The notes beneath the pieces are model-generated. The model ran no database searches. It saw only the letters and a list, made by a program, of their open reading frames with translations, and had not been told where the DNA came from. A stretch of DNA of 64,000 nt from Thelonectria olida (Eukaryota > Ascomycota > Sordariomycetes > Hypocreales > Nectriaceae), in contig JAGPYM010000020.1 in NCBI GenBank assembly GCA_020736575.1, forward strand, positions 434,001 through 498,000, given 5' to 3'. A program made the translations under genes and the position numbers. Shown piece after piece: positions 60,660-62,343 of the stretch; the first letter of the stretch is position 1, and every line of letters starts with the position of its first letter.

Positions 60660-61611
60660 ATGTCTTGGAACCTCTCCTTCCGTCGAGTCCGCCCTTCTCC
60701 CATCATCGCCAGTCTAGCCGCCGGAGGCATTGGCTTTGGTATCCTCACAAAGCTCATCATGGGAAACGCTTCAGCAGAGTCAAGTTCGACCGTCACTCGC
60801 AAGATCTTCAAGGGCGGTCCGGCTTTGCTTTCTCTTCCTCTCGAGAGCTCGGAGTCTGTCAATCACAACACCAAGCGCCTCCGCTTCAAACTACCCCAGG
60901 ACGATGCCATCAGCGGTCTGCCCCTCACCTGTAAGTACTTACAATAACAAGACGCCTCTAGAGATGAACAACGCCTAATTGCATCCAGCCGCGCTTTTGA
61001 CGGTCTCGTTCCCCAAAGGAGGTTGGGTCCCCGTCCCTCGCCCTTACACCCCAGTGAGCCCTTCAGAAGAGCCCGGCTTCTTGGATCTGCTCGTGAAGAA
61101 ATACCCCAACGGAAAGGCCAGCACCCATCTGCACTCCCTACAACCCGGCGACAAGCTCTTCTTCGCCGCCGCCCTCAAAGGCTACTCGTGGAAGGCCAAC
61201 GAGTTCCCGCACATCACGCTCATCGCAGGCGGTGCCGGCATCACGCCCATCTACCAGCTCGCGCAGGGCATCCTCCGCAACCCCGCCGACAAGACGGCCA
61301 TCACTCTCGTCTTTGGCGTGAACGGCGACGAAGACGTGCTCCTGCGAAAGGAGTTTGAGCAATTCTCCAAAGAATTCCCTGGTCGCTTCAACGCCGTCTA
61401 CACGGTCAGCCATCCGGGCGAAGGGTCGCCGTTTCGAAAGGGATACATCACGAAGGCGCTGTTGGAGGAGGTTTTACCGAAGAGCAGACAGGACACAAAG
61501 GTGTTTGTATGTGGTCCACCGGCCATGGAAGAGTCGTTGGTTGGGAAGAAGATGTCGACGGGAGTCCTGGGAGAAATCGGATATCGAAAGCACCAGATCC
61601 ACAAGTTTTGA
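60660..61611 (+). CDS. MCR1: NADH-cytochrome b5 reductase 2, mitochondrial
   Basis: Two exons, join(60660..60930, 60989..61611), give 297 aa. A short basic N-terminus (MSWNLSFRRVRPSP) is followed by one helix, SPIIASLAAGGIGFGILTKLI. VNHNTKRLRFKLP begins the FAD domain, with the flavin motif RPYTPV at about 108-113, and DLLVKKYPNGKASTHLHSL. The NADH lobe has LIAGGAGITPIYQLAQ and the CGPPAM motif at about 265. This is Mcr1, which passes electrons from NADH to cytochrome b5-type acceptors at the mitochondrial outer membrane and intermembrane space. The N-terminus is shorter than in many homologues. The intron is GTAAGT to CCAG, phase 1. Confidence 0.94.
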
Positions 61612-61885: not shown

Positions 61886-61892
61886 GCGGGTT

Positions 61893-61933
<41 letters not shown>

Positions 61934-61958
61934 GTGTGTTCAATCCACACAAACCGCA
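61886..61958 (+). tRNA. tRNA-Phe (GAA), copy 1
   Basis: A 73-nt cloverleaf including the discriminator A, with no intron. D-arm GCTC...GAGC, anticodon stem TCAGA/TCTGA with GAA in the loop CTGAAGA, T-arm GTGTG/CACAC with loop TTCAATC. The acceptor stem has one G-A opposition at position 5/68, shared by all three copies. It is followed by a T-rich pol III terminator. Confidence 0.95.
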
Positions 61959-61966
61959 AGCATTTC

Positions 61967-61971
61967 TTTTT
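61967..61971 (+). terminator. Pol III T-tract terminator, copy 1
   Basis: TTTTT begins 9 nt after the tRNA end; a second T6 run follows at 61975-61980 as a backup. Confidence 0.7.
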
Positions 61972-62048
61972 GCATTTTTTCAAATTATTCTGTACTCATG
62001 CAGTAGCACAGACTTGGTGCCTGGGAGCGTCTCCAGCATCATCACACA

Positions 62049-62175
62049 GCGGGTTTAGCTCAGTTGGGGTATGTTCACTACAATACCATTTTCTGAGACT
62101 CACAACTAACCTTCACTGACAGAGAGCGTCAGACTGAAGATCTGAAGGTCATGTGTTCGATCCACATAAACCGCA
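62049..62175 (+). tRNA. tRNA-Phe (GAA), copy 2, interrupted in the D-loop by an mRNA-type intron
   Basis: The tRNA body is in two parts, 62049-62068 and 62123-62175, together exactly 73 nt and nearly identical to copies 1 and 3. The 54-nt insert (62069-62122) lies after nucleotide 20 in the D-loop, not at the usual 37/38 site. It begins GTATGT, ends ACAG, and has a CTAAC branch-like site at 62106-62110, 13 nt before the acceptor. The A-box lies wholly upstream of the insert and the B-box (TGTTCGATCC) is intact, so pol III could still transcribe it. The T-stem is ATGTG/CACAT, and the T-loop TTCGATC differs by one base from the TTCAATC of the neighbours. It may be functional if spliced, or a pseudogene. 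Confidence 0.88.
62069..62122 (+). other. Putative spliceosomal intron inside tRNA-Phe
   Basis: 54 nt with a GTATGT 5' splice site, a CTAAC branch site and a CAG 3' splice site. Its length falls in the range of the protein-gene introns in this window (49-64 nt for many). Removing it restores TTGGG-AGAGC exactly as in copies 1 and 3. The boundary can slide by only one base (a shared G). Confidence 0.75.
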
Positions 62176-62183
62176 CACAATTA

Positions 62184-62189
62184 TTTTTT
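62184..62189 (+). terminator. Pol III T-tract terminator, copy 2
   Basis: TTTTTT begins 9 nt after the tRNA end, the same spacing as for copies 1 and 3. Confidence 0.7.
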
Positions 62190-62270
62190 GCCTGTGAGTG
62201 CTAATTGTTTCCTCGACTTCCTCCGCTGGCGGACTTGGATCGTGAGAGCGGCAGCCAGCAACATCAACCA

Positions 62271-62277
62271 GCGGGTT

Positions 62278-62318
<41 letters not shown>

Positions 62319-62343
62319 ATGTGTTCAATCCACATAAACCGCA
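62271..62343 (+). tRNA. tRNA-Phe (GAA), copy 3
   Basis: 73 nt, no intron, same body as copy 1 except for a compensated T-stem pair: ATGTG/CACAT instead of GTGTG/CACAC. T-loop TTCAATC. Anticodon GAA. Confidence 0.95.

Follow-up and report, generated by a model that had tools for sequence, protein, structure and literature searches.

Cluster of three tRNA-Phe genes with an interrupted middle copy

Three tRNA-Phe(GAA) genes are clustered at 61886-62343 of the window, by which we mean the whole 64,000-nt stretch of Thelonectria olida DNA analyzed here (G000:C79:434001-498000; assembly of 52.5 Mb in 165 contigs). An earlier note on this DNA had described the middle gene of the cluster (copy 2) as interrupted, and inspection of the sequence confirmed this. 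When the window was searched with ARAGORN and with Rfam (gathering score), copies 1 and 3 were reported and copy 2 was missed. After excision of the insert, copy 2 was recognized by ARAGORN as tRNA-Phe(GAA). The features of the cluster are as follows.

61886..61958, + strand: tRNA-Phe copy 1, uninterrupted (ARAGORN, Rfam)
62049..62068, + strand: 5' exon of copy 2, nt 1-20, identical to nt 1-20 of the six other tRNA-Phe genes
62056..62067, + strand: A box, nt 8-19, intact (from the sequence; matches the A-box search pattern)
62069..62122, + strand: 54-nt D-loop insert, read as a U2-type spliceosomal intron (from sequence, paralogues and shuffles)
62069..62074, + strand: putative 5' splice site GTATGT (GTGAGT, GTACGT and GTACGT in the three paralogues)
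62106..62110, + strand: putative branch site CTAAC, branch A at 62109 (CTAAC in all four inserts)
62120..62122, + strand: putative 3' splice site CAG (CAG in all four inserts)
62123..62175, + strand: 3' exon, nt 21-73, identical in all four interrupted genes
62155..62163, + strand: B box GTTCGATCC, with G57 (A57 in the three uninterrupted genes)
62184..62189, + strand: pol III terminator of six T (the first T run is T6-T7 after all four interrupted genes)
62271..62343, + strand: tRNA-Phe copy 3, uninterrupted, with A49-U65 and A57 (ARAGORN, Rfam, exon comparison)

The insert lies after nt 20 and, as the note had stated, starts with GTATGT, contains CTAAC close to its 3' end (branch A at 13 nt from that end), and ends with CAG. 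Both promoter boxes, said to have been left intact, were whole in copy 2. The statement that excision restores the sister sequence exactly did not hold, because the excised sequence was identical to copy 3 at 72 of 73 positions (A to G at 57) and to copy 1 at 70 of 73 (differences at 49, 57 and 65). An exact match (73/73) was found instead with three further interrupted tRNA-Phe genes of the genome after removal of their inserts. The exon alignment bore out the combination of G57 with the A49-U65 pair in copy 2 and the presence of A57 in copies 1 and 3. The splice junction is ambiguous by one base, and cutting at GT..AG or one base leftward gives the same product.

Elsewhere in the window, a 601-aa protein of the lysosomal cobalamin transporter family was 88% identical to a protein of Mariannaea sp. 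PMI_226, and the named proteins of Fusarium, Cylindrodendrum, Ilyonectria, Dactylonectria and Neonectria among its best 44 matches were 84-89% identical, which puts the fungus within or close to the Nectriaceae.

Interrupted and uninterrupted tRNA-Phe genes in the genome

A 27-nt word from the anticodon arm, searched with three mismatches allowed, occurred seven times in the genome, always with 0 mismatches; no degenerate tRNA-Phe copy within three mismatches of this word was found genome-wide. Three of the seven genes are uninterrupted (two in the window and one on contig C75). The other four lie on four contigs and are all interrupted at 20/21 of the D-loop. Their inserts, with the number of times that the loose signal pattern arose in 400,000 shuffles of each, are as follows.

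Window: 54 nt, donor GTATGT, loose pattern 1 time
C86: 54 nt, donor GTGAGT, loose pattern 0 times
C111: 58 nt, donor GTACGT, loose pattern 1 time
C35: 53 nt, donor GTACGT, loose pattern 0 times

All four donors fit GTRNGT. In every insert the branch sequence is CTAAC, which fits CTRAY; its branch A stands 12-13 nt from the end, branch and acceptor have no AG between them, and the acceptor is CAG, in agreement with 3' YAG. The strict signal pattern never arose in any of the four sets of 400,000 shuffles.

The excised exons of the four interrupted genes are identical (73/73) and are set apart from the uninterrupted genes by G57. The A49-U65 pair is common to the four interrupted genes and copy 3, and G49-C65 is present in copy 1 and the C75 gene. 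The insert interiors resembled each other at the level of shuffles in all six pairs (with 113 to 465 of 500 shuffles matching the observed likeness), with the signals kept, and the last 18 nt are common to three of the four inserts, bar one base. The shared G57 and the identical exons indicate that the four interrupted genes have one shared origin, and so do not represent four independent gains. Identical exons together with diverged introns and kept signals are, as judged from the sequences, the footprint of selection for correct splicing. These comparisons also bear on two reservations of the earlier note. The occurrence of different inserts at four loci strongly disfavors a read or assembly error, and a decaying copy is made unlikely by the identical exons, the diverged introns and the kept splice signals.

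The A box is whole and the B box reads GTTCGATCC in all four interrupted genes. The first long T run downstream is T6-T7 in these genes and T5 in the three uninterrupted ones, with a T6 further on in copy 1. None of the four inserts contains a T run longer than four, so the inserts should not stop pol III early.

The excised tRNA forms six of seven acceptor pairs and all five T-stem pairs, and the plain minimum-energy fold of the unmodified molecule was not a cloverleaf. Given the four interrupted precursors, ARAGORN made no call, whether its intron options were on or off. All seven tRNA-Phe genes share a G5-A68 mismatch in the acceptor stem. None of the seven has an intron at 37/38; tRNA-Phe genes of some other fungi carry one there.

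Introns of mRNA, U6 and U3 genes in the same genome

The inserts were compared with mRNA introns of the neighborhood and with inserts in other structured RNA genes, of which the following were read.

60931..60988, + strand: mRNA intron of a neighboring gene, 58 nt, GTAAGT..CCTAAT..CAG (reading frame and Pfam)
G000:C122:777140-777309, - strand: U6 snRNA gene (L060) with a 71-nt mRNA-type intron
L158 1349-1517: 169-nt insert GTAAGC..GCTAAC..GCAG in a U3 snoRNA gene (L158), absent from its sister (L157)

The mRNA intron beside the cluster has the same anatomy as the tRNA-Phe inserts. Joining across it gave a 297-aa frame up to the stop, with a Pfam FAD_binding_6 match at residues 59-151 that spans the junction near residue 90. 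It is the one that was checked by reading frame and Pfam among 10 signal-bearing mRNA intron candidates of the window, which were 42-78 nt long (a weak set with preset length limits) compared with 53-58 nt for the tRNA-Phe inserts. De novo searches for mRNA introns by codon usage gave a rough picture only: stringent runs yielded two and three clusters, one of the three with full signals; a looser run yielded full signals in 10 of 290 GT-AG clusters, against 0-5 in six decoy donor/acceptor pairs (256-325 clusters; 5 for GT/TG); and a higher coding threshold yielded 4 of 53 against 0-1 in the decoys.

U6 is a pol III gene. The 71-nt insert in the U6 gene of this genome reads GTCAGT..GCTAAC..CACAG, and its removal gives back the conserved ACAGAGAAGAT-TAGCATGGCCCC stretch, which belongs to the catalytic core of U6. 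The U6 intron also contains a B-box-like word, GTTCGAACC; such words in the U6 introns of Schizosaccharomyces are reportedly the subject of a paper of 1990 cited in PMC10484740. There were three U3 matches in the genome, of which the two sister genes were read and the third lies on C88. After joining, the interrupted U3 gene was identical to its sister at 178 of 190 positions. The U6 and U3 inserts indicate that mRNA-type introns recur in structured RNA genes of this genome. Rfam scoring across the genome covered 63 of 1484 tRNA, 47 of 2792 U6 and 48 of 326 U3 candidates, and these figures are no census.

Search for other tRNA genes with D-loop inserts

The earlier note had proposed looking for other tRNAs with such inserts in this genome. 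A search for D-loop inserts with a GTRNGT donor, using the A-box patterns TAGC, TGGC and TGGT, found convincing cases in the four tRNA-Phe genes only. These patterns gave 14, 45 and 52 places, respectively, as compared with 32, 40 and 84 for the reversed-pattern controls, and all the places of these three patterns were checked for a B box and a T stem. Two candidates were dropped by eye because the TTC word of the T loop was absent: L088, with 4 T-stem pairs and 5 of the 7 acceptor pairs, and L127, with 5 and 3, respectively. A fourth pattern, TAGT, gave 20 places (control, 77).

Two side observations were made in the same genome. In another tRNA (L035), an unmodelled stretch of 37 nt lies in the anticodon loop, as expected of a canonical 37/38 intron. 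Near-identical words, TAGTTTAAAAGGNAGTARGT, occur at G000:C1:3976703, C23:28289, C37:17211 and C53:15126, and are perhaps a repeat.

Predicted folding of the interrupted precursors

In the predicted precursor folds, the 5' splice site was mostly paired (unpaired, 0.06-0.35), as was the branch A (0.06-0.30), and the 3' splice site lay in or beside a hairpin loop. Because the splice signals are paired in these folds, splicing would need unfolding or co-transcriptional recognition.

A post hoc comparison showed complementarity between the intron tail, from the branch site to the AG, and the anticodon and D arms; it held for all four precursors (62106-62175 in the window and the same stretch in the paralogues). 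The predicted tail duplexes had energies of -14.0, -12.1, -14.0 and -13.4 kcal/mol (window, C86, C111 and C35, respectively), and 1, 5, 3 and 4 of 300 shuffles were as low; the tails of eleven control introns, from ten mRNA candidates and from U6, ranged from -5.9 to -11.4 kcal/mol. The C86 tail uses different letters for its complementarity. Three of the four tails are related by descent, so that no more than two can count as independent.

For the four precursors, the predicted ensembles put the T stem at 0.69-0.76 and the acceptor stem at 0.50-0.54; the values were 0.00-0.05 for the anticodon stem and 0.00 for the D stem. Against a particular effect of the tails, the D stem was at 0.00-0.02 with every one of the eleven control introns placed in the tRNA, and three of these introns left the anticodon stem at no more than 0.07. 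The excised, unmodified tRNA folded poorly in the same model, with the anticodon and D stems at 0.21 and the T stem at 0.20. The complementarity of the tail may be due to chance, or it may be a lock that keeps the unspliced tRNA inert. An intron that acts as such a lock, its tail masking the anticodon up to spliceosomal removal and thereby tying part of the tRNA-Phe supply to splicing capacity, is a speculative and unlikely possibility.

Discussion

The inserts are very probably U2-type (GT-AG) spliceosomal introns in nuclear tRNA-Phe(GAA) genes, carried in a pol III transcript. The spliceosomal-type reading of the earlier note is strengthened because three paralogues carry different inserts at the same nucleotide with the same signals, because the bulge-helix-bulge alternative is weak, and because U6 and U3 genes of this genome have mRNA-type introns. 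Under our reading, pol III would produce a single precursor whose length, leader and trailer aside, is about 126-131 nt; the nuclear spliceosome would excise the intron from it, and the joined product would be an ordinary 73-nt tRNA-Phe. With less weight, we suggest a single gain of the intron, in an ancestral tRNA-Phe gene that was then multiplied to four loci; the gain perhaps proceeded through reverse splicing into RNA, reverse transcription and recombination, as proposed for U6.

A canonical tRNA intron does not fit, the site being 20/21 and not 37/38. An intron of the tRNA endonuclease (SEN) at a non-standard place, recognized through a bulge-helix-bulge, is extremely unlikely, although 20/21 is a known non-standard site of archaeal introns (PMC4090602, available part) and 20/21 and the D-loop are used in Cyanidioschyzon merolae (PMC3978253, available part). 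In a relaxed search without an intron-side helix, the window copy and C111 reached 9 pairs (28 and 26 of 500 shuffles as good), and with an intron-side helix of 2 bp they reached 8 and 9 pairs, respectively (two of four precursors). However, the strict 3-4-3 form (two 3-nt bulges, a 4-bp central helix and at least 2 bp on both sides) was found in none of the four precursors. The longest intron-side helices were 2, 0, 2 and 1 bp (window, C86, C111 and C35, respectively), and the best candidates of C86 and C35 were equalled by 193 and 174 of 500 shuffles. The full listing held 40, 3, 40 and 13 relaxed candidates in the same order, and the bulge-helix-bulge was rejected as the main reading. The 3' half of the D stem begins one base past the junction, so such motifs compete with the D stem, and they leave GTRNGT, CTAAC and CAG unexplained in all four inserts. 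It could also be held that the inserts are spliced as parts of pol II transcripts (mRNA or long non-coding RNA), with the interrupted genes as their exons. The signals are indeed those of pol II introns, and mRNA splicing is coupled to pol II. This possibility is nonetheless highly improbable, given that T6-T7 terminators stand close behind each gene, that the two exons together make exactly one tRNA, and that an intron of this kind also interrupts U6, which is a pol III gene, in the same genome.

Redundancy, with three uninterrupted copies, would allow some tRNA-Phe genes to be dead and to carry inserts that are never removed. We consider this very unlikely for the interrupted copies: at four loci the exons stayed identical over 73 nt and the introns diverged to background, the terminators, both promoter boxes and the splice signals were kept in all four, and the search with the 27-nt word revealed no degenerate copy within three mismatches. 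Gene conversion could be an alternative keeper of exon identity; it would have to work on pieces of 20 nt and 53 nt that flank non-homologous introns, with G57 and A57 still kept separate. With intronless tRNA-Phe genes present, the interrupted ones might be dispensable. As for origin, the earlier note had also considered an introner scar, and the last 18 nt shared by three of four inserts would suit one signal-bearing mobile element inserted repeatedly at a preferred site. This proposal, which overlaps with our explanation, fared poorly: the window and C86 inserts, the two of the four that were searched, each alone, had no second copy in the genome, the interiors are unlike each other, and the tail that three of them share agrees with descent of the genes from one ancestor. 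Repeated insertion is very improbable. No donor intron for the window and C86 inserts was visible in the genome either (60-base queries, very common words skipped).

The spliceosomal introns proposed here have parallels in other RNAs. The U6 introns of Schizosaccharomyces and other fungi likewise lie in a pol III gene and are short GT-AG introns with a branch site, and those of U6 are removed by the spliceosome. Reverse splicing has been proposed as the origin of the U6 introns (PMC10484740, available part). U6 is a component of the spliceosome, which makes reverse splicing into U6 easy to picture, whereas tRNA is not. In this genome, moreover, the U6 gene has its B-box-like word inside the intron, whereas the tRNA-Phe genes have the B box in the 3' exon. 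The U3 introns of fungi, described in the available part of PMC5832005 as normal spliceosomal introns, likewise interrupt a structured small RNA, and in the present genome U3 too has intron-bearing and intronless paralogues. U3 is about 270 nt long, whereas the tRNA has 73 nt. Nuclear rRNA genes of ascomycetes also carry spliceosomal introns, and one paper cited in PMC11782384 reportedly deals with such introns in an 18S gene of deuteromycetes. These too are mRNA-type introns in a non-pol-II RNA, but the transcript is made by pol I and the RNA is large.

Nuclear tRNA introns have a dedicated removal machinery, an endonuclease and a ligase, and we know of no canonical tRNA introns with GT, branch and AG signals. 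The canonical introns also lie in nuclear tRNA genes but differ from the tRNA-Phe inserts in position, signals and, on our reading, enzymes. In eukaryotes they are placed at 37/38 and assigned to the tRNA endonuclease and ligase (PMC4090602, available part). Sites in the D arm or D-loop, 20/21 included, are used by tRNA introns of archaea, C. merolae and nucleomorphs, according to the available parts of the sources; in archaea and C. merolae the D-loop introns are recognized through a bulge-helix-bulge, unlike what we propose for the tRNA-Phe inserts. The nucleomorph tRNA inserts of Guillardia theta are 3-24 nt long (PMC4090602, same part). GT-AG signals are not mentioned for the archaeal, C. 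merolae or nucleomorph introns in the available parts of PMC4090602 and PMC3978253.

By 2017, introns were known as a frequent feature of two small structured RNAs only, U3 and U6 (PMC5832005, available part), and the 2014 review of tRNA introns (PMC4090602) contains no word starting with "spliceosom". We found no earlier report of a spliceosomal intron in a tRNA in the available open-access literature, with most subscription papers and bioRxiv preprints lying outside it. An mRNA-type intron in a pol III gene was already known, and the present one is apparently, to our knowledge, the first case in a tRNA. Two patterns each gave 0 matches in virus and prokaryote contig collections, a result with no bearing on the spread of such introns in fungi. 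tRNA finders can overlook such interrupted genes, as copy 2 of the window escaped both of those used here.

If our reading is true, tRNA can also be processed by a machine unrelated to the endonuclease and ligase, and splicing is possible on a short pol III transcript whose first exon has 20 nt. The interrupted tRNA-Phe genes would then offer a natural test system for how the spliceosome selects RNAs that are not made by pol II, and for whether reverse splicing into abundant RNAs is a source of new introns.
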